Shown here: piece after piece, positions 94-15,724 of the stretch
How the letters are laid out: each line of letters opens with the position of its first letter
Position numbering within the stretch: the stretch's first letter is position 1
Assembly (NCBI GenBank): GCA_025054615.1
Contig: JANWZO010000019.1
Span: 1-42,615 of the forward strand
Source of the DNA: Kiritimatiellia bacterium
GTDB lineage: Bacteria > Verrucomicrobiota > Kiritimatiellia > CAIVKH01
DNA: 42,615 nucleotides
Reading direction: 5' to 3'
Translations under genes and position numbers: made by a program
Notes under the pieces: model-generated
The model's database searches: none
The model's input: only the letters and a program-made list of their open reading frames with translations
What the model was told of the DNA's origin: nothing

Positions 94-3000
94 GTGAGCC
101 GTGTTGTCAGCGCGTGGCTGCTCGTCATATGGCTGCACGCGACGCCGATCCCGGCGATGGCAGATCCCGGTCCGATTGGCGGAGCGCAGGGCGGAACTGT
201 CGAACCGGTGGCTGAAGCGCACCCGGAGATCTTTCTAGTAGGGTGGCGCGATAGCTGGCGGAAAGAGGCTCGAATCGCGGCTCATCGACGAGTCGGGGCG
301 CAGTTTATCCGTGAGTTCAAACGCTCGAAAGTGGACGTGGTCCGCATTCGCCGTGAGGCCGACCGCGAACGCGCCATCAAGGCCTACCGCAGCCGTCGTG
401 AGGTCCGATTTGTTGAGCCTAATTACCGGCTTCGAAAATTAGTAGTCCCGAATGATCCGATGTTTTCAGACCTGTGGGGTCTACGAAACATAGGACAGGG
501 TGGCGGAGTTCCCGGAGCCGACATTAATGTGACAAATGTTTGGGCGCTCTATGGTACCGGAAATACAAATGTCATCGTCGCTGTGATCGATACGGGAATC
601 GACGTTACACACCCCGACCTCGTCGCCAATCTCTGGCAAAACCCCGGTGAGATTCCAGGAAATGCGGTAGATGACGATGGAAACGGTATTGTTGACGACG
701 TCTTCGGCGCGCGTTGGACCAACGGTGATGGATCTCCGACCTCCGGCAATCCGATGGATGGAGATGGACACGGAACACACGTCGGGGGAACGATCGGCGC
801 TGTCGGCAATAACAATCTCGGCGTCGCAGGAGTCAACTGGGCCGTTCGGTTGATGGCTCTCAAATTTCTGGACGATAGTGGATCCGGTTGGACTGCGGAT
901 GCGATCGCCGCGATCGAATACGCGATCTCAAAGGGCGCCCATATCCTCAACAATTCATGGGGTGGAGGCCGTTTTTCGCAGGCCCTTGAGGAGGCCATTG
1001 AGGCAGCGGGGGACGCAGACCAGCTTTTTATCGCCGCTGCCGGAAACAGCAACAATGACAACGATTCAGTTCCAATGTATCCCGCCTCTTACGATGCGTG
1101 GAACATCATCGCTGTGGCGTCCAGCGATCGAAGGGATAGGATGTCATCATTCAGCTCCTATGGTCGTTCATCCGTAGACCTGGCTGCGCCGGGCAGTGCA
1201 ATTCGCAGTACGGTGCCCGGTGCCGGATATGACGACTACAGCGGGACATCAATGGCCACTCCGCATGTCGCCGGCGCGGCCGCTCTCCTGAAGTCAATTT
1301 TTCCGAATGCTACGGCGGAACAATTAAAGCAAATGATCCTCGATGGAGCGCGCCGCCTTCCTGTCTGGGAGGGGAAGACGGTCACTGGTGGTCGTTTGGA
1401 TGTCGGCGAAAGCGTGCGGATCGGCCTGTTGCCGCCGGTCGTTCAACCGGTATCCTCCTTTTTCGCGAGCAGCGCTGATTTCTCCAATTATGTGGATCTG
1501 GTCTGGTCAAGCCCGACGTCGGCTTTGTTCTCTCATGTTGTCGTTCGTTCGAACACGAATGGCTATCCCGGCAATTGGTCCGAAGGTGCGCTGGTTTATA
1601 CCGGGGTTGCTGAAGCGGTACGGGATGAGCCGCTGGAAGTGGGGCAGCGAAGATTCTATTCGATCTGGGCGGTATACTCGACCGGGTCCACGACCTTCTA
1701 TTCCGCGGCTCGCCACGCGAGCGTAACAGTGGGTGGGGACCCGACCGATTATTTTACGGAGATCTTCTCCGCGAACGACAACGACCTCTCCTACAAGACC
1801 TTGACGCTGATCCCCGACGGTTCACTAAATCGATATTCGGCCTTCTCCGACCCGGCGACGAATTTTTTTGTCGATCCCTCCGGAGGTGTTCCGCTTTCTC
1901 TCGGGGATGATTCCTTCGTCGCCGTCGCCATCACCGGCGGTCCTTCTGTGAAACTTTATGGTGTCGCCTACACAAATTTGTTTGTTGGATCCAATGGATA
2001 TATTTCATTCGGTACGGGAGACACCCGCTACGTTGAACGTCTTTCCACTCACTTTGACCGGCCCCGCATCTCGCTGTTGTTCGACGACCTGAACCCGGCG
2101 AGCGGCGGAATCGTTTCACGCAAGCAGTTGGCAGATCGCTTTGTCCTCACTTATCAAAATGTCCCGGAATACGGCGCAAGCTCCCCAAACAGTTTCCAGG
2201 CGGAGCTGTTCTTCGATGGCCGAATTCGCATCACTTGGCTGGCTTTGGCTGCGCGAGACGGCCTCGCCGGCATTTCGGCCGGGAATGGTTTACCGGCGAA
2301 TTTTGCCGAGAGCGACTTGACGTCTTATCCGCCGTTCGACGAGCTGCGAGTATCCCCTGCTTCGGCTTATGAGCCTGCCGGTATCGCCGGTGGTCCGTTT
2401 GCGCCGGCCGAATTCGTTTATGTTCTCTCAAATTCGATGGCCCTGACCATTTCATGGTCGTCCGGACTTTCGGTCAATTGGCTTGAGATCTCACCGCGCT
2501 CGGGCGTTCTGGCTTCGGGGGAGACCGTTAGCGTGACAGTGTCCGTTTCGGCTGTGGCCCAGACTTTGGCGCCGGGCCTATATGAGGGTTGGATCTATTT
2601 TACGAACCAGACTAGCGGGCGAATCCATGCGCGGTCGGTGCGATTGAGTGCCGCGCGTCCGGATTATACCGCCCTCTACTTTGCGGATCGTCACCGCCGC
2701 CCGGATCCTGTATTGCCGGCCTTGCGGAGCGTTGGATATCTGGTGCGGGTGGCCACCAATTGGCCCGCATTTGTGTCGAGCTTGCAGACCGGCGAATACT
2801 TCATTGCTGCAGCGGTCTCGCAGAATGGCCCGCCTTCGCCGGCTGCGTTTTCGGCGATGTCCAACTATTTGTCGAACGGTGGGCGCGCTCTGCTCATTGA
2901 CCGCTCCAAAAATCCGATGTGGGCAGAGTTATTCGGCGCGGCGCCGGTCGGGTCGGACAATCGAAACCCGGTGATCATCACGGAGCCGGATCTTTCCGCA

Positions 3001-6000
3001 GGTATTTCAAACCCAATGACTTTGTTCAATCCAGGACAACCCCGATTCTCGTGGGGTCTTTCCCCGCAGACCGGTTCGGAATCAATCGCGGAATACCGCG
3101 ACGGCCGCTCGGCCCTAGTGTGGGGAAATCAGCGCAGGACCGCCATTCTGGGTTTCACCGCTGATGCCCTCCCCACGAACCAGGCAATCCGCTTTTTCGA
3201 AAATTTGATCAGACTGATTGAATCCGGCGAGGTCGCGTTATCGGTCGAGCCGCCCACGCGCTGGGAAATTTCCGGATTTGAAGGGGGGCCTTTCAGCCCG
3301 GATGAGCGACTGTTCACCGTACGCAATCATTCCTCGAATCCGATCCCCTGGTCTGTAGCGGCGTCCGCTTCATGGCTGTCTTTGGCGCCATCAAACGGAG
3401 TTGTGGCGCCCCACGACGCCCAGATAATCACGGCGAGAGTTGCCTCTTTGGCGGATGAATTGCCGCCGGGCGAGCAGCACCAGATGCTCGTGTTCAGCAA
3501 CACCGTGTCGGGCGGCGTGATCAAACGACAGGTGAGGATTCTTGTTCAGCAGCTACCTGGCGAAATCATTGTATGGGACAGCATCTCGCCGACCAATGAC
3601 ACAGCGATGCCGTTCGGCGATCTGACGGTGGGAAATTCACGAAGTGAGCAGATCCGGATCGCCAACATCAGCGCGGACCGTCCGTTGGAGATTTTCGGTA
3701 TCGGCCTGTTCAGTGCTGATGCCTCGGAGGCCGGGGGGTTGACGGTTGACTCGGTGCCGAAGTTCCGCCAGACCGACCGCCCTCGTGAGCCTTATCATCC
3801 GCACATTCTTATCGTAGGTTTCAAAGATGGAATTCAGGCGGCTCAACGGGACGCGATTCATCGTCGGATTGGCGCGGAGAGGCTGCGGCGTTTTCGACGG
3901 ATTGCGGCCGATGTTGTGGAGTTGAACAAACAAGCGGACATTCACGCCGTCCGAAAACAGTATCTCGCGGATCCTGCGGTCGCCTACGCGGACCTCAACT
4001 ACTTGGTGTCCACCCTCATAATTCCAAACGATCCGCTCTTCGGGCAGCTTTGGGGCCTCCGAAACGTGGGTCAGACGGGGGGAATGCCCGGCGCGGATAT
4101 TCGCGCGCCCGCTGCATGGTCGCTTGTGCGGGGCGGGAGCAACGTCATCGTGGCCGTTATCGATACGGGGATCGATTACTCCCATCCGGATCTAGTGGAG
4201 AACATGTGGCGAAATCCAGGCGAAATTCCGGACAACGGGGTTGATGACGATGCGAACGGCGTTATTGACGATGTGTACGGTGCACGATGGACCTCCGGGA
4301 CCGGTGTGCCCGTCAGCGGAGATCCGATGGACGACAACGCCCATGGCACACACGTTGCCGGCACGATCGGCGCGAGGGGCGACAATGGGATCGGCGTGGT
4401 CGGCGTCAACTGGCGTGCGCGAATGATGGCGCTAAAATTTCTGAATCAATCGGGTGCGGGGTACACGGCGGACGCCGTCGCGGCTCTTGAATACGCGATC
4501 GACATGGGCGCCCGAATTTCGAACAACTCGTGGGGCGGCGGGGGCTGGTCCCACGCGCTCAAAAACATGATCGATGCGGCTTCAGCGGCAGGGCACCTCT
4601 TCGTTGCCGCGGCAGGAAACTCCAATTCTGACAATGATGTAGCTCCTTCCTACCCGGCTTCCTATCCCTGCTCAAATATTTTGGCGGTCGCCAGCAGCGA
4701 CCATAACGACCAACGTTCGGCGTTTTCTTCCTATGGCCGGACTACCGTCCATCTTGCGGCGCCCGGGTCCACGATCCTGAGTACCGTACCTGGTGGAGGG
4801 TACACGAATTTTAGCGGCACTTCGATGGCCACGCCCCATGTCGCAGGGGCTGCCGCGCTGATCTGGTCACTCAATCCGCTTCTCTCCGATCAGGCCGTAA
4901 AGGAGGCGATCATAAGCGGCGTGGATGTTTTGCCGGAGTGGACGAACCGCGTGTTGTCGGGAGGTCGCCTCAATCTTGAAAGGGCGTTGCGCCGAATTTC
5001 CCCCCATTTCCATATCGAAGGCGCTGAGATTCTTCCCGCCATAGTGCCGCCGGGGGGCGAACTGCCGCTCACGGTCCATTATGCGCCTCGAACCCCCGGC
5101 AGCCACACGGGCCGGGTGTGGATTCTGTCGAATGATCGGTTTTCTCCGACAACCACCGTCTGGCTAGCCGGTTCGGGATTGCCCGACGCTCTGAACATTT
5201 CACCGCCGGGCGGAGCGCTTATGAGAGGTCCGGAAGGCGGCCCGTTCTCTCCGCCATCCATCATCTACAGGCTGTCGAACCAGGGTACTTCGCCGATCTC
5301 TTGGTCAGCATCCGCCTCCGCCAACTGGATGAGTGTCTCACCCTCTGAAGGGCTGCTGGAGCCACTGCAGACCTCGAGTGTCCAGATTACGATCGCGCCC
5401 TCGGCCTTTTCGCTTTTGCCTGGAAGCTATGGCGGTTCGGTTGAATTCGTCAATCAGTCGTCCGGAGTGACCAACATCAGGGAAGTCCTGCTGTTGGTTG
5501 AGCCGCAACTGTGCGACGCCGTGGACGCCTGCGAAATGGTATGGTCTTCCGGAGGGGCGGTCCGCTGGATTGCGCAAACCAACGTGTCAGCCGACGGGGT
5601 CGATGCCGCAGAGAGCGGCGCGATCGGAGATGATGAAGCCAGTTGGATTGAGACAACAGTGGAAGGCCCGGGGATCTTGTCGTTCGATTGGAAGGTCTCT
5701 TCGGAGGAGGGCTATGATTTCCTCAACTTTGAGGTCAATGGGATTACGCGGGCCAGCATCAGCGGCGAGAATGATTGGGAAACACGCCATGTTGAGCTCT
5801 CCAATGGGGTTCACGAGTTGCGATGGACCTATGTAAAGGATTTCAGCATTGCATGGGGTGAAGATCGCGGATGGCTCGACCGGGTTGTCTTTCGCCGTTA
5901 TATCTTTGCGCCCGCATCAGACCACGCTGGCAATTACGGCGCGGCTCCGTCCAATTTCACGCACGGCGCGAACCAGGGGCGCGGCTTTGGTCCGTGGGTC

Positions 6001-6921
6001 ATCGACTCCAGCGGGAATGCCACCGCGGATCTCTTCAACTCGAGCGCGGCGAGTGCCAACATCAATTCAGAAAATGGCGCGGCTTTTCGCTTCTTCGGCG
6101 GGGCGGGCGGCGCTTTCGTAAATGCGATTCGAACCTTCGGGTCGCCGCTCAGGTCCGGGGATACATTCAGCGTGACTATCGCATACAACTGGAACGGCGG
6201 CGCCCGCGGCTTGAGCCTGTTGGCGAACAACGATGAAGAGCTGTTCAACGTCAATTTCGGACCGGGTGACCTCCTGACTTTCAGGTGGACAAACGGGTCT
6301 CCAATCCATCTCTCGACCTACTGGTCGCCCACCACGATTCTCCGAATTGCCGCAACGCAACTTGGCAGCAATCAGCTCACCGTTTCATTGGCGCGCAACG
6401 ACGGTTTTCAAACGAATCTGTTGTCCAGCAGTCTATTATATCCTGCGGCCAAGGTCAGGTTCTACAACGGTGGTCACCCGGGCGATAACATCCGATATGC
6501 GCTATTCGCAAACTATCTTGGGATCGCCCGCTCTAATGCCCATGACGCCGACCAAGATGGTCTGCCGGATTGGTGGGAGTCGGAGTATTTTGGAAATCCG
6601 ACCAACGCGAGCCCCGATGCGCTCGCCGCGGAAGGTTCCTACACGTTGCTCGAGGCGTGGGTGGCCGATTTGAATCCGCTGGATCCGGCGGCCTCCTTCC
6701 CGCGAGCCGGCATAACGCTGGGCCCCGACTCGAGCCCTCGCGTTTGGATTGAACCGACCTCGGTCCAACGGCTCTACGGGGTCGATTCGACAACAAATCT
6801 GGCGACGCCGATTTGGATTCCGCATCTGCCGATGGCCACGGGCACAGGCGGTTCGGTGACGATTCCCGTCACCCATGAGGAACCAGCCCGCGTGTATCGA
6901 GCCACCATCCGCCTGCCCTAA
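94..6921 (+). CDS. Giant secreted protein with two tandem subtilisin (S8) protease units
   Basis: 2275 residues from a GTG start; a stop codon lies in frame 12 bases upstream and no clear Shine-Dalgarno precedes it. A signal peptide covers about residues 1-23. Unit 1 has an inhibitor-like prodomain (about 43-130) and a subtilisin domain with D166, H226 (HGTH), N318 and S386 (GTSMATPHVAG). Then come a beta-rich region (about 553-748), a BACON-like repeat (754-850), a glutamine-amidotransferase/ThuA-like domain (about 855-1047) and a second BACON-like repeat (1050-1153). The first half of a choice-of-anchor-D-like domain (1156-1206) is followed by unit 2 (prodomain from 1235; D1357, H1417, N1509, S1577) and then the second half (1637-1696). 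A third BACON-like repeat (1700-1803), two jelly-roll-like regions, a DxDxDG segment (from 2151) and an STTNL C-terminal module (2232-2236) finish the protein. Both catalytic sets are intact. Extracellular or cell-surface proteolysis is inferred; the substrate is unknown. Confidence 0.93.
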   Translation: MSRVVSAWLLVIWLHATPIPAMADPGPIGGAQGGTVEPVAEAHPEIFLVGWRDSWRKEARIAAHRRVGAQFIREFKRSKVDVVRIRREADRERAIKAYRSRREVRFVEPNYRLRKLVVPNDPMFSDLWGLRNIGQGGGVPGADINVTNVWALYGTGNTNVIVAVIDTGIDVTHPDLVANLWQNPGEIPGNAVDDDGNGIVDDVFGARWTNGDGSPTSGNPMDGDGHGTHVGGTIGAVGNNNLGVAGVNWAVRLMALKFLDDSGSGWTADAIAAIEYAISKGAHILNNSWGGGRFSQALEEAIEAAGDADQLFIAAAGNSNNDNDSVPMYPASYDAWNIIAVASSDRRDRMSSFSSYGRSSVDLAAPGSAIRSTVPGAGYDDYSGTSMATPHVAGAAALLKSIFPNATAEQLKQMILDGARRLPVWEGKTVTGGRLDVGESVRIGLLPPVVQPVSSFFASSADFSNYVDLVWSSPTSALFSHVVVRSNTNGYPGNWSEGALVYTGVAEAVRDEPLEVGQRRFYSIWAVYSTGSTTFYSAARHASVTVGGDPTDYFTEIFSANDNDLSYKTLTLIPDGSLNRYSAFSDPATNFFVDPSGGVPLSLGDDSFVAVAITGGPSVKLYGVAYTNLFVGSNGYISFGTGDTRYVERLSTHFDRPRISLLFDDLNPASGGIVSRKQLADRFVLTYQNVPEYGASSPNSFQAELFFDGRIRITWLALAARDGLAGISAGNGLPANFAESDLTSYPPFDELRVSPASAYEPAGIAGGPFAPAEFVYVLSNSMALTISWSSGLSVNWLEISPRSGVLASGETVSVTVSVSAVAQTLAPGLYEGWIYFTNQTSGRIHARSVRLSAARPDYTALYFADRHRRPDPVLPALRSVGYLVRVATNWPAFVSSLQTGEYFIAAAVSQNGPPSPAAFSAMSNYLSNGGRALLIDRSKNPMWAELFGAAPVGSDNRNPVIITEPDLSAGISNPMTLFNPGQPRFSWGLSPQTGSESIAEYRDGRSALVWGNQRRTAILGFTADALPTNQAIRFFENLIRLIESGEVALSVEPPTRWEISGFEGGPFSPDERLFTVRNHSSNPIPWSVAASASWLSLAPSNGVVAPHDAQIITARVASLADELPPGEQHQMLVFSNTVSGGVIKRQVRILVQQLPGEIIVWDSISPTNDTAMPFGDLTVGNSRSEQIRIANISADRPLEIFGIGLFSADASEAGGLTVDSVPKFRQTDRPREPYHPHILIVGFKDGIQAAQRDAIHRRIGAERLRRFRRIAADVVELNKQADIHAVRKQYLADPAVAYADLNYLVSTLIIPNDPLFGQLWGLRNVGQTGGMPGADIRAPAAWSLVRGGSNVIVAVIDTGIDYSHPDLVENMWRNPGEIPDNGVDDDANGVIDDVYGARWTSGTGVPVSGDPMDDNAHGTHVAGTIGARGDNGIGVVGVNWRARMMALKFLNQSGAGYTADAVAALEYAIDMGARISNNSWGGGGWSHALKNMIDAASAAGHLFVAAAGNSNSDNDVAPSYPASYPCSNILAVASSDHNDQRSAFSSYGRTTVHLAAPGSTILSTVPGGGYTNFSGTSMATPHVAGAAALIWSLNPLLSDQAVKEAIISGVDVLPEWTNRVLSGGRLNLERALRRISPHFHIEGAEILPAIVPPGGELPLTVHYAPRTPGSHTGRVWILSNDRFSPTTTVWLAGSGLPDALNISPPGGALMRGPEGGPFSPPSIIYRLSNQGTSPISWSASASANWMSVSPSEGLLEPLQTSSVQITIAPSAFSLLPGSYGGSVEFVNQSSGVTNIREVLLLVEPQLCDAVDACEMVWSSGGAVRWIAQTNVSADGVDAAESGAIGDDEASWIETTVEGPGILSFDWKVSSEEGYDFLNFEVNGITRASISGENDWETRHVELSNGVHELRWTYVKDFSIAWGEDRGWLDRVVFRRYIFAPASDHAGNYGAAPSNFTHGANQGRGFGPWVIDSSGNATADLFNSSAASANINSENGAAFRFFGGAGGAFVNAIRTFGSPLRSGDTFSVTIAYNWNGGARGLSLLANNDEELFNVNFGPGDLLTFRWTNGSPIHLSTYWSPTTILRIAATQLGSNQLTVSLARNDGFQTNLLSSSLLYPAAKVRFYNGGHPGDNIRYALFANYLGIARSNAHDADQDGLPDWWESEYFGNPTNASPDALAAEGSYTLLEAWVADLNPLDPAASFPRAGITLGPDSSPRVWIEPTSVQRLYGVDSTTNLATPIWIPHLPMATGTGGSVTIPVTHEEPARVYRATIRLP
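220..1413 (+). repeat. Protease unit copy 1 (internal duplication)
   Basis: Residues 43 to about 440 of the giant protease match residues 1235 to about 1634 in order and spacing. Both copies begin HPxI and carry an RRxGA motif, a PNDPxF-x-LWGLRN junction, the D/H/N/S catalytic set and an ending GGRLxxxE. The distance from the opening HP to the GGRL motif differs by only a residue or two between copies. Many synonymous positions differ at the DNA level, so the duplication is old. Confidence 0.9.
3796..4995 (+). repeat. Protease unit copy 2, inserted in a split anchor domain
   Basis: This is the second prodomain plus subtilisin unit, residues 1235 to about 1634 of the same protein. The flanking segments (3559-3711 and 5002-5181) read as the two halves of a single choice-of-anchor-D-like beta domain. 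The copy therefore appears to sit inside that domain rather than beside it. Confidence 0.8.
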
Positions 6922-7686: not shown

Positions 7687-7754
7687 TTGAAGCCTCCGTG
7701 AAAAGATCTCAGTGGGTGTAATGTCTCCTTTCGAATTTGGCAAGAAACCATTGC

Positions 7755-8711
7755 ATGATGACGTTCAAACCAGCCCCAACTGATGGGACCTTCTACCGAC
7801 TTTCCGAGGCGGAATGGACCGCCCGTCGGGCAGCTCATGAGGAACGGCTGCGGCCGGTGGTCGAACCTCATCTCGCGAGGCAATCCCGCCATGAATCGCA
7901 CCCGGTAATCGATTTCCTATTTCAGTATTACGGGTATCGGGCGTCGGCGCTCCTGCGCTGGAGCCCGGGACTCGGCGTGATTCTAGAAGGGGATCGAGCC
8001 CGTGAGTTTTTGCGGGACCCTCGGTATGAAGAACGCGATGGCGGAGTTGCCCTCAGGAGTCCACGCTTCTCGCCCACTCGTCTCGAGGGGATCCGTTGGA
8101 TATTGAATCTGCTTGAGACGACGGCGAGCCGGCCGCCGCGTTTCGGATGTTTCGGCATGCATGAATGGGCGATGGTCTACCGCGCTTCTTCTCGCCGCCA
8201 TTCGGGTGTCCCGCTAAGGATGGGGGACGACGAACTGGCAAAATTCGTCGAGGTGCAGCGCATCGCTTGTTCCCATTACGATGCATTTCGCTTTTTCACC
8301 CCCGCGGCGCGTCCGCTCAACCGGTTGCAGCCCTCTGCGCAAAATCGAATCGAGCTCGAACAGCGCGGCTGCCTCCACACCAACATGGATTTATACAAAT
8401 GGGCGATGAAAATTTGGCCCTGGGTCGAATCGGAGCTGGTCGGCGACGCATTCCTGTTGGCTCTCGAAATCCGAGAGCTTGACATGCGCGCAAGCCCCTA
8501 CGATCTGAGTCGATATGGTTATGCCCCCGTACGGATTGAGACGCCCGAGGGACGACTAGAGTATTCCCGTTTGCAGCAGCATCTCGCTGAAAAGGCCGTT
8601 CCTGTTCGTCTGCGGCTCATTGACGCCTACTGCAAGGTCTTGAATTCGACGACACCCAACGTCGAGTACGCCGGATCGTGCTGTGGCGAATCCCTGAGTG
8701 GGACTGCCTAG
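7755..8711 (+). CDS. Protein of the family labelled '3-methyladenine DNA glycosylase' (function unproven)
   Basis: 318 residues from ATG 7755; a second ATG follows at 7758, and a TTG at 7737 would add six residues. No good Shine-Dalgarno is visible. The protein opens with LSEAEWxARRAAHEERL, then HPVIDFLFQYYGYR, FGCFGMHEWAMVYR, HYDAFRFFTPAARPLN, a CLHTNMDLYKWAMK motif and ELDMRASPYDLS. I recognise this set from a conserved bacterial family of about 300 residues, common in actinobacteria, that databases often call 3-methyladenine DNA glycosylase. It does not resemble the AlkA or Tag helix-hairpin-helix enzymes or AAG, so that label should not be taken as a function. The many conserved His, Tyr, Trp and Asp residues suggest an enzyme. 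There is no signal peptide, so it is likely cytoplasmic. Confidence 0.8.
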   Translation: MMTFKPAPTDGTFYRLSEAEWTARRAAHEERLRPVVEPHLARQSRHESHPVIDFLFQYYGYRASALLRWSPGLGVILEGDRAREFLRDPRYEERDGGVALRSPRFSPTRLEGIRWILNLLETTASRPPRFGCFGMHEWAMVYRASSRRHSGVPLRMGDDELAKFVEVQRIACSHYDAFRFFTPAARPLNRLQPSAQNRIELEQRGCLHTNMDLYKWAMKIWPWVESELVGDAFLLALEIRELDMRASPYDLSRYGYAPVRIETPEGRLEYSRLQQHLAEKAVPVRLRLIDAYCKVLNSTTPNVEYAGSCCGESLSGTA

Positions 8712-8764: not shown

Positions 8765-10756
8765 TCAGGAATTTTGGGGGCTCTCCATCGGCCGAGGATT
8801 GAGGTGGTCCGTCCCGTCGGGCCGGCCGACATCCTCCTCTTCGCCTTCTCGGACTAGACGCGCACTGTTGAAGACAACAATCATCGAACCGGCATTGTGA
8901 GTGAGGGCGGCCAGGATGGGATGCATCCAGCCAAGGCCGGACAGAGAGAGTCCCACGGCGATGAAGACCAGACCGATGGCGAGATTTTGATAGACGACCT
9001 TGCGGGCCGAGCGGGACAGTCGAATCAGGAAGGGGATGCGCCGAAGATCGTTGCTCATGAGGGCAATCGCCGCACTGTGAATCGCCACGTCGCGCCCGGC
9101 GACCCCCATCGCAATGCCAGTATCGCTTGCCGCGAGCGCGGGGGCGTCGTTCACGCCATCTCCCACAAAAGCGACCCGATAGCCTTTCGCTTTTAGCGAA
9201 TTGACCCAATCCACCTTTTCGGCAGGTAGGCATTCGGCTCGCCATTCAATCGATCCGGCTGCGGCGCCGATTTCATCTGCCAGTCGTCGCGCAACGGCCT
9301 CTCGATCTCCCGTGACCATGGCCAGTTTTCGAATGCCGGACATGGCGGCTAACTCGGCGAGGGCCTGACTTGCTTCCGGCCGGATCTGATCGCGAAGACC
9401 GATCCAGCCCAGATAAGCGCCGCCTTCCGCCACGTGGATGGTGCTCAAGGATTCCACGCGGGCCTCGGAGTCGGATTCGAGCGACGGATCGGTCACCCCG
9501 TTTTCCCGCAACCATGAGGCCCGCCCGCACACGAGAAGCCTGTCTCCCAAACGCGCGCGGACCCCACGGCCCGGTTCTTCGTGAAAATCGGTGACGGAAG
9601 CCGGTGCGATTCCCGCCTGTTCCGCGAGCTGGAGAATCGCGCGGGCCGCCGGATGCTGGCTAAGGGACTCGGCGGCAGCGGCCGCTCCGAGCAGCCGCGC
9701 GGGCTCGACGTTCCTAACCGGGGCGAGACGGACCACGCCCAGCATCCCGGAGGTCAATGTGCCCGTCTTGTCGAAAACAAACGCATCGATTTGCGCAGCA
9801 CCCTCGAGATATGCCACGTCTTTGATGAGAATCCCCCTTCGCGCCGCGGCGGATAACGCCGCGACCATCGCGGTGGGCATGGCCAGGATAAAAGCACAGG
9901 GGCACGAAATCACCAAAAGGGCAACGACCCGGTCCCAATCATCTGTAAAGTACCAGACGATCGCCGCAAGCATCAGGACGGCCGGGGTGTAGTAACCGGC
10001 GTATCGGTCAACAAGCCGCATGACCGGCAGCCGGGTCTTCTCCGCGGCGAGGATAAGCTCGCGAACGCGGCCAATTGTTGTGTCTTCCCCTGCTCGAGTC
10101 ACCTCGACGTCGATGGCGCCCGTCAGATTCAGGGTTCCGGCAAATACCTCGTTGCCGGGTTCACGGTCGACGGGTAGCGATTCTCCCGTAATCGCAGATT
10201 CGTCGAGGGTGGTCCGTCCGCCGCGAATCACGCCATCGGCAGCCACGTGGTCGCCCGGGCGGATTCGAATTAGGTCGCCGGGACGAAGATGGCTGGCGGG
10301 CACTTCCTCTTCCGTGCCGTCGGGTCGAATTCGCCGCGCCACTGCTGGGGTAAGACGGATCAGGCTTTCAATCGCCCGGTGCGCGCCCTCGGCTGTGCGA
10401 GTTTCGATCACGAGCGAGAGCAACATGAAAAAGGCAACAATGCCCGCGGTTCGGAAATCGCCCTGCGCCATGGCCGCTAGGACGGCCAGCGCGACCAGTT
10501 CATCCATATGCAGGTGCCCGCGGATAAGGTCGCGCAGAGCGGCGAGGAAGATCGGAGCCGCCAGAACCAGGGCCCCCGCCGCCGCGCTCATCTCCGCAGC
10601 CAGCGGATTGTCAGGCAGAAGCCAGTCCGCTACATAGGAATTGAGCACCAAGGCCGCCCCCGTCCAAAGCCATCCCGCCCGAACCCGATGATGGGCGTGA
10701 TTTTCAGGTGCCGCCGGTGAGCAGCCGCACGAGGCTGATGGGGCGGTACGCTTCAC
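8765..10756 (-). CDS. Heavy-metal-transporting P1B-type ATPase
   Basis: 663 residues from GTG 10756, which overlaps the preceding TGA by four bases (GTGA). It pumps a transition-metal ion out of the cytoplasm using ATP. Visible motifs are TGES (190-193), the metal-site CPC (C285-C287) in a membrane helix, DKTGTLT with phosphorylated D329, the HP motif (H368-P369) that marks P1B pumps, and GDGVND (532-537). There is no N-terminal HMA domain; a short Cys/His tail (C10, C12, H20, H22, H23) stands in its place. The last helix has LTHNAGS-x-IVVFNSARL, unlike textbook CopA (Cu) or ZntA (Zn/Cd), so the metal is undetermined. It is the last gene of the SPFH operon, which suggests a functional link to those membrane scaffold proteins. 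Confidence 0.93.
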   Translation of the reverse strand: MKRTAPSASCGCSPAAPENHAHHRVRAGWLWTGAALVLNSYVADWLLPDNPLAAEMSAAAGALVLAAPIFLAALRDLIRGHLHMDELVALAVLAAMAQGDFRTAGIVAFFMLLSLVIETRTAEGAHRAIESLIRLTPAVARRIRPDGTEEEVPASHLRPGDLIRIRPGDHVAADGVIRGGRTTLDESAITGESLPVDREPGNEVFAGTLNLTGAIDVEVTRAGEDTTIGRVRELILAAEKTRLPVMRLVDRYAGYYTPAVLMLAAIVWYFTDDWDRVVALLVISCPCAFILAMPTAMVAALSAAARRGILIKDVAYLEGAAQIDAFVFDKTGTLTSGMLGVVRLAPVRNVEPARLLGAAAAAESLSQHPAARAILQLAEQAGIAPASVTDFHEEPGRGVRARLGDRLLVCGRASWLRENGVTDPSLESDSEARVESLSTIHVAEGGAYLGWIGLRDQIRPEASQALAELAAMSGIRKLAMVTGDREAVARRLADEIGAAAGSIEWRAECLPAEKVDWVNSLKAKGYRVAFVGDGVNDAPALAASDTGIAMGVAGRDVAIHSAAIALMSNDLRRIPFLIRLSRSARKVVYQNLAIGLVFIAVGLSLSGLGWMHPILAALTHNAGSMIVVFNSARLVREGEEEDVGRPDGTDHLNPRPMESPQNS

Positions 10757-11793
10757 GGGGCAGTCGACTCCCGTACCGCGGAAGGCGGCGATCCAAAATT
10801 CATGCGCAGCTCCGTTTCTTTCCCGCCGGCAACAATCACCTTTCGCCCCGCGTTGGCTAGCGCCTCTCGGACCGCATCCTGGCGCAATGTTTCCCTGACG
10901 AGCGCAGGATCCTTCTCCCAGGCAGATTGAAGCGATCGAAAGGCGTCCGCCCGAGCGGTTACCGTCGCCACACGCCGCTCCTTTTCGGACTCGGCAGCAA
11001 CGCGGGCCCGGTCAGCCTCCGCCTTCGCTTCGTTCAAGGTTCGGGTTGCCTCCGCCCTCGCCTGGTTGCTCTGCTGGTCGCGCTCTTGGGCGGCCTGAAT
11101 GACTGAGTCGAATGCGGACGCCGTCTCCTTAGGCGGCGCAACCGCGAGTAAATCCACTCCCTGTATTCGCAGGGCGAGCCCGATTTCGTCCATGCGTCTT
11201 CGAAGCTCGGCCTCGACATCCGCGCGAAGCGAATCGATATCGCCCCGCATCGCACGGTCGATCGGATAGGCCGCGCTGACGCGGATCACCGCCCGCTCCA
11301 ACTCCGCGAGCAGGGTGCGCGTCGGATCCTCATGCCCGAAAGCGTACCGCCTCGGGTCAGCGATGGTATATCGCACGGCCCATCGGGAGTGCAGGACATT
11401 CGCGTCCCCGGTCATGGCATAGCCCGGGCCTACTTCGTCCAGGCCTTCCGCCATGCGAGCGGAGCGAGTCGCCTCATCGACGGAATGCCAAAAACGGGCT
11501 GTGGTAACGCTTTGGACGCGCCCCGCCGGAATTCGGATGATCTCCGTGAAGGGTCGGGGAAGCGTCCAGTGCAATCCTGGTTCGGCGATGACATCGGCGC
11601 CAGTTCCGGCAGCCTTCCCGAAAAGCAGCACGATCGCACGCTCATGCTGGTCGACGATGAATATCCCCGAGGCCGCATAACCGATACCGACCAGTACGAG
11701 GAGCAACCGCAGGATGCGAAAGGCTGACCGCAGCGCGTTAGCGAGCGCCTCCTGTCCGGTAGCCGGTATTTGTTTAAGAGGTCCTTGTTTCAC
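10753..11793 (-). CDS. SPFH/HflK-like membrane protein
   Basis: 346 residues from GTG 11793, which overlaps the upstream TGA (GTGA); a longer open frame reaching 11940 only shadows the preceding gene. One membrane helix near residues 25-47 is followed directly by the SPFH/PHB domain (FIVDQHERAIVLLFGK, GLHWTLPRPF). It includes the AYPIDRAMRGDIDSLRADVEAELRRRM stretch split over beta and helix, then an Ala/Glu/Arg-rich coiled coil (about 230-310, AEATRTLNEAKAEADRAR). HflK and HflC form a large ring that encloses FtsH in the inner membrane. No ftsH is present here, and three SPFH genes lie in one operon, so the partner is open. Stop and start overlap with the metal ATPase implies translational coupling. 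Confidence 0.87.
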   Translation of the reverse strand: MKQGPLKQIPATGQEALANALRSAFRILRLLLVLVGIGYAASGIFIVDQHERAIVLLFGKAAGTGADVIAEPGLHWTLPRPFTEIIRIPAGRVQSVTTARFWHSVDEATRSARMAEGLDEVGPGYAMTGDANVLHSRWAVRYTIADPRRYAFGHEDPTRTLLAELERAVIRVSAAYPIDRAMRGDIDSLRADVEAELRRRMDEIGLALRIQGVDLLAVAPPKETASAFDSVIQAAQERDQQSNQARAEATRTLNEAKAEADRARVAAESEKERRVATVTARADAFRSLQSAWEKDPALVRETLRQDAVREALANAGRKVIVAGGKETELRMNFGSPPSAVRESTAP

Positions 11794-12713
11794 GGATCGG
11801 GAATTGTCTTGGAGGACGTGTTGCCTGGAGGGGTATTCGGTGTCGGCAGCAGGAGGTCGAAAGGCTCCACATCCGCTCCGAGAACCAGCGTGGCACGCTC
11901 CCCGACGGTCTCCCGAAGCGCATCTAGCTTGCGGAGCCAAAGGGCCAGCTCAAGATTTTCAGCGAAAATCCGATAGGATTTGGCGGCCTCCGCTTCTGCC
12001 TCGGCGCGAATCCGGCGGGCATCCGCCTCCGCGCGGGCCAGAAACTGTGCGCGCTCGCTGTCGGCCCGCGCTCGAATTCGAATGGCTTCCGCCTCGCCTT
12101 CGGATCGATACTGCTCGGCCAACTCTTTTCGCTCAGCGCGCATGCGCTCATACACGGATTGAAGGATAGAGTCCGGCAGACCCAATCGCCGTATTCCCAC
12201 GAAGCAAACCTCAATCCCGTATCTGCGGTCCGCCTCACTTCTGACCGCCGCCAAAACCTCCCTTTCGATCTGGTCGTGCACAAGCCGCTCCGCCGCTGTG
12301 TTGACCAACTCGGAGAAGAGTGCCTTCCCAACGGCCGCGCTCTTGTATGTTCGAATCAGGCCGTCCAGACTGGCTTCAGCCTGCTCGACTGAACCCAGGC
12401 GCTCGAGAAAGAGAAGGGGGTCGCGAATCCGCCATCCGCAATACATGGACATCAGGATATTTTTGCCGTCGGCCGTAAGGGTCTCCTCATAGGCGCTCCG
12501 GAGCGTATGGATCCGGCCGTCGAAGCGGTGAACTCGTTCAAGGGGCCAGGGGAGCCGCGTTTGGAGTCCCGCCTCTTTTATCGTGCGGTGAGGGCGGCCC
12601 ATGCGTGTGATGACGGCCAACTCACCCTCTCGGACGATGAACAAAAACTGCAGCACGGCGAACAACGCGAAGAGGGCGCATCCAACAGCCAATGGCAAAC
12701 GACGTGCGGTCAT
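11790..12713 (-). CDS. SPFH/HflC-like membrane protein
   Basis: 307 residues from ATG 12713, overlapping the previous stop by four bases (ATGA). An N-terminal helix (PLAVGCALFALFAVLQFLFIV, read across its length) leads into the SPFH domain: REGELAVITRMGRP, then GLQTRLPWPLERVHRFDGR, DGKNILMSMYCGWRI and a long charged Ala-rich coiled coil (about 190-270). Length and order match HflC (about 300-330 residues). The conserved region IEVCFVGIRRLGLPDSI corresponds to the HflC segment that precedes the coiled coil. A proline-rich tail (PTPNTPPGN) follows. The protein probably multimerises with its two SPFH neighbours in the inner membrane, coiled coils outward. Orthology to genuine HflC is not established, since the operon holds three such proteins. 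Confidence 0.87.
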   Translation of the reverse strand: MTARRLPLAVGCALFALFAVLQFLFIVREGELAVITRMGRPHRTIKEAGLQTRLPWPLERVHRFDGRIHTLRSAYEETLTADGKNILMSMYCGWRIRDPLLFLERLGSVEQAEASLDGLIRTYKSAAVGKALFSELVNTAAERLVHDQIEREVLAAVRSEADRRYGIEVCFVGIRRLGLPDSILQSVYERMRAERKELAEQYRSEGEAEAIRIRARADSERAQFLARAEADARRIRAEAEAEAAKSYRIFAENLELALWLRKLDALRETVGERATLVLGADVEPFDLLLPTPNTPPGNTSSKTIPDP

Positions 12714-14563
12714 GGCGTTTCATCTCCGAGTGGAAAGGGAGCGAGCTCATAGAGTTCCGGCAGGCTCTGGCCTCTGAGGTCGAAAAACAGGCTCTTTCTC
12801 GCCTCGGGGTGTGCGAGCACAGTATACGGCCGGTCGTGCAGCGCGTCCCGAACGGCGGTAAGCCGCAGATCCTGTCGAAGCACTGCCGACGCGGCCCGAT
12901 CCGATTCGAGAAGACTTGAAAAAAAAGCGGCCTCCGAAGCCGCGCGCTGTCGCACGGACTCTGCATCGGCCTCTGCCTCGAGGCGAATCTTCTCGGTCTC
13001 GGCCTGCGCACGCGGGGCGACCGAGGCGGAATAGGCCCTTGCCTCCAGTAACCGGGCGTGCCTTTGTTCCACCGCGGCAATCACTGACTGGAACGCGTCG
13101 GCGGCGGGCACGGGCGGATGGATGCCCAGGTCCATCACTGACTCAATTTCCACTCCGATCCCAAGGCGGTCAGCGTCGCGCTGGATTTCAGCACGTACAT
13201 GCTCGGCGAAATCGCGTCGCCCCCCTCCGAGCAGGTCAAGAAGGTCGCGGGCAGCGAAAGTCCGCGTCACGACGCGATACGCACAATCCCGGAGCAGTTC
13301 ACCCGGATCACGGTGTGTATAGGCGAAGGCGAGGGTGTTCGTGACGCGATACTCGACCGAAAGATTGATCGTGGCGACATTGACACCGGCCGCTTCCGAG
13401 TCAATTCGACCACCACGCGGCCGGGCTGCCGTCACGAAAATTTCCTCATCCGAGTAGTGGGGCACTGTCCAGAGTATCGTCGCAGGACGTTGAGAGGCCG
13501 TGCCCGCTTCGAAACCAACGTCGAATCGCAAGATTCGCTTGGCTTCCACCCGGCGCACGGTCTCGATAGGCCAGGGCGCCAGCAAGTGGAAACCGCTGTC
13601 CAGTCTCCATTCCGGCGAAACGGGTCGACCGAGGCGCTCCCGGATGCCAACTTCGTGAGGCTCAATAAACACGAGCGAAGTCAATCCGTACAACAGGACT
13701 GCCTCCAGCGCTACGATGGGCAAAACGCCCTTCCGAAGAAAATGGCGAAGCGCTTCCTGTCCGGATCGGACGCCGAATTGGTAATCCACAGATGATGCAA
13801 GCGACCGGGACCATCCGGTCGGATCGGTGAGCCACTCGCCGATTCGACTTTGGATGGTCGGCAGTCTTCGATGGACCGGCACATAGAAAGCGGCCAGAAC
13901 TAATACAGCCTGCTCGATCGCGAGCACCCCTCCGGCAACCAGGAAAAGAAGTTGCAGAATGCGGTCCGCCTGCCACCCCTCCACACGTGAGGCAACGGAA
14001 GCTGCTGCGGCGGCGAAGGTTGCCAACGAAATGATTCCCAGCGCGATCCCCGCCGGGCGCGCAGGGGCAGTCGATTTGTCTCGTGAGATCGCGATGAGGA
14101 AGCGGCTGCAGAGAAAGAAAGCGAAGCCCTCCGCGACGAGAAAGGCGGTTGCGACAAGCGGATCGACCTGCAGGTCGGCCGACGGGGCTGTCGGTCGTTG
14201 GAGCCTGATCCATGCCCACGCCCCGAGTCCGAGCGCCAGGGCAACTGAAGCGGAGGGGATCCCGAACCTTTCGAATCTCGCCAGGGAACGTGCCGCGGTG
14301 AACGGCTCGTCGGATCCGGTGCTGAACAGCGCCGTCTGAGCCGGGCTCTGGGTGCTCCGCTCTTGCGACTCTTCATTGGCAAGCCGGCGAAACCGGGCGT
14401 GCGCGAGTGACAATGCGCTGACAATCGCGGCCCACGCCGTCAACGCCAGCCAGCCTTCCCAGAAGGCGAGGGGAACCTTTGAAGCAAGTGCCGCATTTAC
14501 GGCGGCGCCCAAGGCCAGGGAGCCAAGCCCCACGGCGATCGCTTGTTCAGCGGTCGACTTCAT
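12710..14563 (-). CDS. Polytopic membrane domain fused to an SPFH/HflK-type domain
   Basis: 617 residues from ATG 14563, overlapping the previous TGA (ATGA); the frame extends to 14662 only as a shadow. About seven hydrophobic helices fill residues 5-330, with a loop of charged and Ser/Gln residues between helices 2 and 3. The last helix (VLPIVALEAVLLYGLTSLVF) runs straight into an SPFH domain (IEPHEVGIRERLGRP, GFHLLAPWPIETVRRVE). A coiled coil follows (ARAYSASVAPRAQAETEKI, then EAEADAESVRQRAASEA) and a tail near LYELAPFPLGDETP. Ordinary HflK has one helix and about 400 residues, so the N-terminal membrane domain is extra. It may be a membrane anchor or a lipid/ion-interacting module; I do not recognise it. 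It is the largest member of the operon's three SPFH proteins and the first to be translated. Confidence 0.85.
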   Translation of the reverse strand: MKSTAEQAIAVGLGSLALGAAVNAALASKVPLAFWEGWLALTAWAAIVSALSLAHARFRRLANEESQERSTQSPAQTALFSTGSDEPFTAARSLARFERFGIPSASVALALGLGAWAWIRLQRPTAPSADLQVDPLVATAFLVAEGFAFFLCSRFLIAISRDKSTAPARPAGIALGIISLATFAAAAASVASRVEGWQADRILQLLFLVAGGVLAIEQAVLVLAAFYVPVHRRLPTIQSRIGEWLTDPTGWSRSLASSVDYQFGVRSGQEALRHFLRKGVLPIVALEAVLLYGLTSLVFIEPHEVGIRERLGRPVSPEWRLDSGFHLLAPWPIETVRRVEAKRILRFDVGFEAGTASQRPATILWTVPHYSDEEIFVTAARPRGGRIDSEAAGVNVATINLSVEYRVTNTLAFAYTHRDPGELLRDCAYRVVTRTFAARDLLDLLGGGRRDFAEHVRAEIQRDADRLGIGVEIESVMDLGIHPPVPAADAFQSVIAAVEQRHARLLEARAYSASVAPRAQAETEKIRLEAEADAESVRQRAASEAAFFSSLLESDRAASAVLRQDLRLTAVRDALHDRPYTVLAHPEARKSLFFDLRGQSLPELYELAPFPLGDETP

Positions 14564-15525
14564 CCGCGCAGTTCCATGCCTCGAAAGGCAGCGATTCCGG
14601 ACGAGATTACCGCCGTGAGATACGCCAACGTATAGAGAGCAGCCTTTCCCACATAAGCCCACGGGATGCCATCGCCCGCCAGCGCGTCTGCTGCCCAGAA
14701 ATGTTGGAAGTTGGGAAGAACCGCATCAGCGAGACCGAAGAGCGGAAAATTAGAGGCGCGGCGAGCAAATAAATAATCCGACATGAGCCCTAGCATGAAA
14801 ATTGAGCTGCAAACGGCGAGCGAAGGCACGATGTCCAGCCTCGTGGCGAGCGAAGTCGCAATCCCCGTCAGCAGCAGGATTGCAAGCGAAATCAAGGCTG
14901 AGGCCGGAACAATTTCGAGAGGCAGATGGAACGATTCGGACGCATCCCCCGCGTGACTTCCCGCGAAGCCGCCGACAACGACAGCGGCCGGCACGAAAAG
15001 GAGCAACGCGCCAAACGCGCGCGAGGCAAACGGCACGCGCAGGAAAAAGTTCTGAACGCCCCCTGCTGCCAGCGCGAGGAGGATGGCCACAAGAAGCGGG
15101 CCGGAGCCCCACAAGTCATAACTGAATTGCAAGGAGGCCGTCCGCGTGGCGAGGAGCACAGCGCATCCCATCAGCAGGGAAAACGCCATCATGACAAAAG
15201 CCACACCAACGTATTTTCCGATGAAAAATACCGGCCGCGCCACCGGCTTTGACAAAATCGCGGATGCCGTTCCGCCGCGGAGTTCAGCGCGAAGCGCAGC
15301 ACAGGCGATCAGGACGCCGAGGATGAGCCCGAGCACAAAATGAAGAGCAAGGGCGCTGTCGCGCACGAGGCGTTCGCCCTCATGCAAAGTATGCGTGAAC
15401 ACAAATGGCATGCAAGCGATAAAGGTGAGCGCAGCCGCCGTCAGCAACACAGTGATTGGCAGACGCACAGCTTCCAGAGCCGTTAACTGAGCAATCGCGA
15501 AGCCTTGTCGGACTGCAAGACGCAT
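14560..15525 (-). CDS. ABC-2-type membrane permease, first gene of the SPFH operon
   Basis: 321 residues from ATG 15525; a GTG at 15543 is the alternative and neither has a clear Shine-Dalgarno. About eight hydrophobic segments are visible: LPITVLLTAAALTFIACM, LHFVLGLILGVLIACAA, FVMMAFSLLMGCAVLLA, LLVAILLALAAGG, LLLFVPAAVVVGGFAG, ISLAILLLTGIATSLA and a C-terminal pair. The cytoplasmic RAELRGGTASAILSKPVARPVFFIGKY segment (read in parts) matches NosY/ABC-2 family permeases, where a G-T-A/S-x-xx-L-SKPV-R motif follows the second helix. The family normally works with a separate ATP-binding subunit, and none is encoded within this window. It overlaps the next gene by ATGA. The gene is divergent from lpxK. 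Confidence 0.8.
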   Translation of the reverse strand: MRLAVRQGFAIAQLTALEAVRLPITVLLTAAALTFIACMPFVFTHTLHEGERLVRDSALALHFVLGLILGVLIACAALRAELRGGTASAILSKPVARPVFFIGKYVGVAFVMMAFSLLMGCAVLLATRTASLQFSYDLWGSGPLLVAILLALAAGGVQNFFLRVPFASRAFGALLLFVPAAVVVGGFAGSHAGDASESFHLPLEIVPASALISLAILLLTGIATSLATRLDIVPSLAVCSSIFMLGLMSDYLFARRASNFPLFGLADAVLPNFQHFWAADALAGDGIPWAYVGKAALYTLAYLTAVISSGIAAFRGMELRG

Positions 15526-15724
15526 GAGATTAAGTGTACGCACGGCGCCAATTTCTGCCACGCGAATTGTTGGAGATGGGCGATATCGCGACAGTTCCTG
15601 CTGATTCGCATGTGTTATCTTCAGAATTATCGAGCGCATCGGGACAGCGGGATTGACCCTCGATGAGCAAGCTGGCACCATCCCTAATCGGACTCCGGAA
15701 TAACCGCCCATCTACCCGGCGCGA
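15526..15724. promoter_or_regulatory. Divergent intergenic region between the SPFH operon and lpxK
   Basis: Both transcription units must start at or near these 199 bases, as they point away from each other. I see no convincing paired -35/-10 boxes and no long inverted repeat. Short open frames inside it lack coding features. Confidence 0.3.

Follow-up and report, generated by a model that had tools for sequence, protein, structure and literature searches.

What role do three SPFH proteins play when they are encoded in one operon with a metal pump? HflK and HflC form a periplasmic cage around the protease FtsH, and P1B-type ATPases move metal across the inner membrane; relatives of both stand side by side in a five-gene operon on the minus strand (positions 8765-15525) of contig JANWZO010000019.1 (assembly GCA_025054615.1, Kiritimatiellia bacterium), the 42,615 nucleotides of which are called the window below. 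An earlier note, made from the letters of this contig, had suggested a membrane scaffold of SPFH proteins that organises a metal pump, and this idea gained from our comparative analysis: the gene order holds in relatives, and fusions of SPFH proteins both with the pump and with a cation diffusion facilitator (CDF) exist. We consider it probable that the operon represents a widespread module, in which the SPFH trio builds a periplasmic cage of the HflK/C type specifically for the P1B metal ATPase, and very probable that pump and SPFH proteins are physically or functionally coupled.

Organization of the operon

The five genes, of which the three SPFH genes are designated K1, C and K2, are given here from first to last with their junctions.

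15526 to 15724, no strand assigned: intergenic region up to the start (15725) of a divergent gene; presumably the promoter, with no match to the gamma-type Zur box
14560 to 15525, minus strand: ABC-2-like accessory permease, 321 residues; ABC2_membrane_4 below the Pfam gathering score (19.8 versus 27 bits), weak two-way profile match to an ABC permease family
14560 to 14563, minus strand: ATGA stop/start overlap of permease and K1
12710 to 14563, minus strand: K1, 617 residues; Band_7, AlphaFold2 models, matches to HflK structures, CDF fold
12710 to 12713, minus strand: ATGA stop/start overlap of K1 and C
11790 to 12713, minus strand: C, HflC-like SPFH protein, 307 residues; TIGR01932, 150.2 bits (cut-off 134.4)
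11790 to 11793, minus strand: GTGA stop/start overlap of C and K2
10753 to 11793, minus strand: K2, HflK-like SPFH protein, 346 residues, GTG start; TIGR01933, 135 bits
10753 to 10756, minus strand: GTGA stop/start overlap of K2 and pump
8765 to 10756, minus strand: P1B-type metal ATPase, 663 residues, GTG start; TIGR01525, 538 bits (cut-off 346), motifs, clade of SPFH-linked pumps

All five open reading frames (ORFs) and the four 4-nucleotide overlaps between them were found as the earlier note had described them, and the ATG start of the permease agrees with the N-termini of its relatives. The three SPFH proteins all passed the Pfam Band_7 model, with the SPFH domain placed after a transmembrane (TM) helix. 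The NCBIfam cut-off for HflC was exceeded by C, and the pump likewise exceeded that for heavy-metal P-type ATPases; the HflK cut-off (159.4 bits) was reached neither by K2 nor by K1 (95.9 bits), both of which are HflK-like. The pump carries DKTGT, CPC in TM6, H-N-x-G-S in TM8 and a Cys/His-rich N-terminus, and no HMA domain was seen in it.

Conservation of the gene order

A search of 387 genomes of the window's phylum with K1 as query gave a match in 196. Forty-two loci, including the window, were read, and 39 of them were informative, the other three stopping short of the pump position. The order K1-C-K2-pump was kept in 38 of the 39 (C in L038, L046 and L047 was confirmed by tblastn), the sole exception being L068, with a rhamnosidase-like gene after K2. 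The same four genes were present on plasmids of Burkholderia ubonensis, Klebsiella aerogenes and Rhizobium tumorigenes. With K1 of the first two species as queries, a scan of named genomes yielded 80 loci from gamma-, beta- and alpha-proteobacteria, and a pump was located downstream in 79 of the 79 loci with a recognised K1; in some of these loci the simple ORF-picking procedure did not return K2 as an ORF of its own. As the loci were selected by K1 only, the count of pumps is free of search bias. Window K1 shares just 19-25% identity with its proteobacterial counterparts. Since the order is conserved in two distant groups, a chance neighbourhood is rejected, and the link between SPFH proteins and metal transport is, to judge from the genomes compared, real and ancient. 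The expectation that the five genes would stay together in relatives thus stands for K1, C, K2 and the pump, but not for the permease, which lies upstream of K1 in only 13 of the 42 phylum loci.

Pump clade and pump-SPFH fusions

The SPFH-linked pumps form one clade, distinct from E. coli ZntA and CopA and from same-class pumps without the SPFH link (FastTree support 1.0; IQ-TREE ultrafast bootstrap, UFBoot, 100); with fused pumps included, the support for the clade is 98. The window pump shares this clade with the pumps of the Pseudomonas K1-C-K2-pump synteny (UFBoot 100, for Pseudomonas copies other than PA2435). ZntA/CadA-type P1B ATPases have DKTGT, CPC and the overall architecture in common with the window pump, a member of TIGR01525. 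The linked pumps, however, are set apart from them not only by their clade but also by a His-Asn/Thr/Ser motif in TM8 at the place of ZntA's Asp-Thr-Gly and by the lack of an HMA motif in 115 of 117; CPC in TM6 is kept, and the N-termini are often rich in Cys and His. The pump of L195, of the same clade, carries CPI instead of CPC.

Furthermore, pump and SPFH protein occur in a single chain. Such fusions were first met in two P1B ATPases of the class that had been taken as outgroups only, where a frame of 1004 residues carries E1-E2_ATPase, Hydrolase and Band_7 together (Pfam). A search of 374 genomes revealed five P1B-SPFH fusions, in three families:

L192/L209 (genome G020): P1B ATPase and SPFH in one ORF
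L193/L210 (G007): P1B ATPase and SPFH in one ORF
L218 (G114): P1B ATPase and SPFH in one ORF
L219 (G290): P1B ATPase and SPFH in one ORF; runs off the contig
L220 (G050): P1B ATPase and SPFH in one ORF

Because they come from five genomes and the other four are 42-74% identical to the query, these fusions are not assembly errors. The fused pump is sister to the linked pumps, and C and then K2 follow downstream in the four loci where the contig continues; the fusion loci represent another form of the module, separate from the first. The topology of the fused protein is consistent, as the C-terminus of a P1B ATPase is cytoplasmic and the next TM helix would put the SPFH domain in the periplasm. 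To our knowledge, few clients of bacterial SPFH proteins have been described beyond FtsH and NfeD. The gene fusions name metal transporters as a class of such clients and predict a complex that can be purified.

The CDF-fold membrane domain of K1

K1 consists of a six-helix N-terminal membrane domain (residues ~1-230), a TM helix (~271-294), an HflK-like SPFH region (~300-510) and C-terminal helices. The AlphaFold2 model of the protein shows the six helices, the further TM helix and the SPFH domain (pLDDT 67.9), and in its SPFH part matches HflK as found in complex with FtsH (7vhq/9cz2). When the N-terminal part was modelled alone (pLDDT 78), its 33 best PDB entries in VIA-align were all CDF zinc/manganese transporters (YiiP, ZnT1, 3, 4, 7 and 8, and SLC30A10) with Z 8.3-15.5, the best at 3.0 Å over 187 residues, and the first entry outside the CDF family had Z 7.4. 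The VIA-align comparison was a second look at Foldseek candidates, and for the N-terminal domain alone Foldseek gave E-values of 0.3 only, with probabilities up to 0.99. Comparison of profiles by hhalign showed the phylum K1 profile to be colinear with the CDF profile over six helices (P 4e-5; two unrelated membrane control profiles 0.07 and 0.26), and the proteobacterial K1 profile alone gave no good CDF match (P 0.03). The assignment of the CDF fold rests on the separation in VIA-align together with the profile match.

K1 thus has the six-helix membrane fold of CDFs such as YiiP/FieF and ZnT in common with them, but carries an SPFH domain in place of their C-terminal cytoplasmic domain, and the CDF metal ligands (HxxxD/DxxxD in TM2 and TM5) are absent from window K1. 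Because no His or Asp stands at the FieF ligand positions, the modelled domain has probably lost CDF-type transport. A Glu in helix 6 (E217) is invariant. The HflK of a similar trio on the Aquibium oceanicum plasmid NZ_CP018172.1 (L084:4343-5890) is a fusion of Cation_efflux (CDF) and Band_7, in which HxxxD is found in both expected helices and the metal sites are apparently intact; this is one record only. The Aquibium trio is followed by a gene for a peptidyl-prolyl isomerase and then by a ZntA-like heavy-metal P-type ATPase of a different kind, with N-terminal metal-binding motifs. No paper on CDF-SPFH fusions was among the matches listed in a literature search that left subscription journals mostly uncovered.

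Relation to the HflK/HflC-FtsH complex

The SPFH fold is shared with E. coli HflK/HflC, as are a cytoplasmic N-terminus and a periplasmic SPFH domain, a topology predicted from flanking charges. The module differs by three SPFH genes instead of two, by the lack of an adjoining ftsH, by the pump in the operon and by the CDF-fold domain on K1. As the earlier note had remarked, ftsH is missing from the listed ORFs of the window; the gene does lie elsewhere in the same genome, on contig C4 (833 bits). In three related genomes (G112, G291 and G387) a canonical HflC (237-286 bits) coexists with the module HflC (145-175 bits), which sets the module apart from the FtsH modulators there. In the window organism it is possible that the trio also serves FtsH and has a shared role.

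Contig C20 of the window genome carries two further overlapping SPFH genes (L089:4655-7929; 573 and 518 residues), the products of which have repeated segments ahead of the SPFH domain and no NCBIfam match.

Zinc and the hmtA cluster of Pseudomonas

The order K1-C-K2-small protein-pump in P. citronellolis corresponds to PA2439-PA2435, and by this synteny the P. aeruginosa version of the module is PA2439-PA2435, with HmtA as the pump. The window copy differs from the hmtA cluster by an upstream ABC-2-like permease and by the lack of both a small gene before the pump and a detectable Zur box. Within the P. aeruginosa cluster PA2434-PA2439, PA2439, PA2438, PA2437 and HmtA (PA2435) were elevated 9.0-, 10.6-, 14.4- and 5.6-fold, respectively, in a znuA mutant (PMC4542158), and zinc depletion raised the levels of the cluster's proteins, though for some not significantly (PMC11761036). 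The PA2439 promoter is bound by Zur (PMC8531726), and HmtA has been reported as an importer of zinc and copper (PMC8456098). PA2437-2439 are PA14_33110/33080/33070 (PMC9431628), i.e., the genes of PaFlo5-7, the triple deletion of which lowered biofilm by ~20% and led to some attenuation in wax-moth larvae (PMC13086221).

Our analysis of upstream regions revealed a Zur-like box (at most two mismatches) before K1 in 33 of the 80 proteobacterial loci, compared with ~2% of control windows; upstream of the phylum loci, the gamma-type Zur box and other palindromes did no better than shuffled sequence. Within the phylum, ZnuA-like, ABC ATPase and ZnuB-like genes lie directly upstream of the module and in the same direction in L046 (4677-7622), and a MerC-family and a Fur-family gene, the latter with its best match to Zur below the cut-off, lie directly upstream of the module's permease in L069 (6238-7531). 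The window genome encodes elsewhere one Fur-family protein and znu-type permeases. Zinc is a rather probable substrate of the module, and would by extension be the metal in the window organism; for net uptake as the direction of transport our confidence stays just below even. The earlier note had spoken of a metal exporter. This cannot be assumed, because synteny and clade place the pump with the Zur-regulated HmtA, a reported importer.

The part of the note that called this a new use of SPFH proteins holds insofar as no paper was found that treats HmtA, P-type ATPases and SPFH proteins together or that describes the module, in the same literature search with the same coverage of journals; it does not hold insofar as the P. 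aeruginosa cluster of HmtA and HflC/HflK proteins had already been seen in studies of zinc starvation, and its SPFH genes in work on SPFH proteins. Accounts of the hmtA cluster usually leave these genes out. With them HmtA gains partners, and its atypical transport might find an explanation in a periplasmic cage, the claimed import by a P1B ATPase having been an open question since 2009.

In Pseudomonas L116 (5487-5984), L134 (9376-9864) and L143 (9684-10136), K2 and the pump are separated by a gene for a small protein of 150-165 residues, which occupies the position of PA2436, is without an assigned family and has an apparent N-terminal signal sequence.

The permease and the ABC genes

The permease is a variable accessory of the module. 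In the phylum, the gene immediately after the pump encodes an ABC ATPase at 24 of 37 loci, often accompanied by genes for a permease and a protein of 500-540 residues, and local profiles show the window permease to be a short relative of the ABC permease found after the pump in many relatives. At five loci (L044, L046, L056, L069 and L211) a permease precedes K1 and an ABC ATPase follows the pump. In the window genome an ABC ATPase, an ABC permease and a 501-residue protein without a Pfam match are encoded together on contig C30 (L088:7752-11701), and this ATPase is the orthologue of the pump-adjacent one of relatives (59% identity). The absence of an ATPase subunit, a puzzle to the earlier note, is no puzzle, the likely partner being the orthologue on contig C30; most simply, the cognate ATPase of the permease would be supplied from there in trans.

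A proposed cage for a metal pump and the alternatives

In the explanation that we propose, the pump would sit in a membrane patch closed off by the SPFH cage, taking the place that FtsH has in the E. coli HflK/C complex. K1 would anchor the cage via its N-terminal CDF-fold domain, and C and K2 would provide the remaining subunits. The cage may govern access or exchange of metal at the periplasmic face of the pump and keep the transport components together. The metal would most likely be zinc, with copper as a possibility, and the module would serve zinc homeostasis; the Pseudomonas version is switched on by zinc starvation, uptake being the direction reported for it. As a tentative extension, for which we claim less than an even chance, the trio may form a closed periplasmic chamber, metal being handed between pump and chamber and not to the open periplasm, with the CDF-derived domain as anchor or sensor; the membrane module (CDF, pseudo-CDF or P1B pump) would then have been exchanged on an SPFH chassis in the course of evolution.

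Several observations weigh against this explanation. The CDF ligands are lost from window K1, and the window genome encodes FtsH and has no HflC above the cut-off besides that of the module. A search for the gamma-type Zur box upstream of the module gave nothing in the window or in other loci of its phylum, the motif being gamma-proteobacterial and perhaps not that of the phylum, and of 41 phylum loci just two (L046 and L069) have directly adjoining znu-like or Fur-like genes. In P. aeruginosa PA2435 is placed in the module by synteny, reviewers hold that the import direction of HmtA needs confirmation (PMC10393844), zinc addition left hmtA mRNA unchanged in one study, and the PaFlo5-7 triple deletion in PA14 had no strong phenotype in rich medium (PMC13086221). 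Where pump and SPFH proteins are separate chains, their coupling is deduced from genomic context. On balance, the interpretation of the earlier note is partly supported.

The reading nearest to what is known of HflK/C would make the trio a pump-specific arm of FtsH quality control, recruiting FtsH and setting the amount or folding of the pump without any transport chamber. The score of C above the HflC cut-off, the match of the K1 SPFH region to HflK of the FtsH complex, and the window genome, with its ftsH and the module HflC as the only one above cut-off, speak for it. We nevertheless regard it as unlikely, since the annotated loci show no FtsH within the module, a canonical HflC coexists with that of the module in three related genomes, and the fusions put the pump and a cage subunit in one chain. 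Somewhat unlikely, too, is an efflux or detoxification system, in which the pump would export zinc, cadmium, lead or copper while the SPFH trio would protect the membrane or keep metal from the cytoplasm. P1B ATPases are as a rule exporters, NCBIfam groups the pump with cadmium/zinc exporters (TIGR01512, 459 bits) and several copies of the module lie on plasmids, but the Pseudomonas operon answers to zinc starvation and Zur, Zur-like boxes precede part of the proteobacterial loci, and the aspartate of ZntA is absent from TM8 of the pump.

The frequent ABC genes would also allow the core to be an ABC-2 export system for an envelope component, consisting of the ABC ATPase, the permease and the 500-540-residue protein, with pump and SPFH proteins as helpers. 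This is very unlikely: the annotated proteobacterial copies lack ABC genes after the pump, and in the window genome these genes stand apart on contig C30 while K1-C-K2-pump stays joined. We see next to no chance that these are ordinary hflKC genes with a pump and a permease as unrelated neighbours. Annotation pipelines do label parts of the module as HflK/HflC modulators, and the permease is variable, but the conserved order in both groups, a pump clade specific to the module and direct fusions refute such a coincidence as far as genomic evidence goes.

Neighbouring genes and viral contigs

No relatives of the module were found on viral contigs. In the window, the pump gene is adjoined by an ORF of 324 residues on the plus strand (7737-8711) without a Pfam or NCBIfam match. 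A protein of 2275 residues, encoded at 94-6921 on the plus strand, carries two complete subtilase (Peptidase_S8) domains and two Fervidolysin-type prodomains in tandem.

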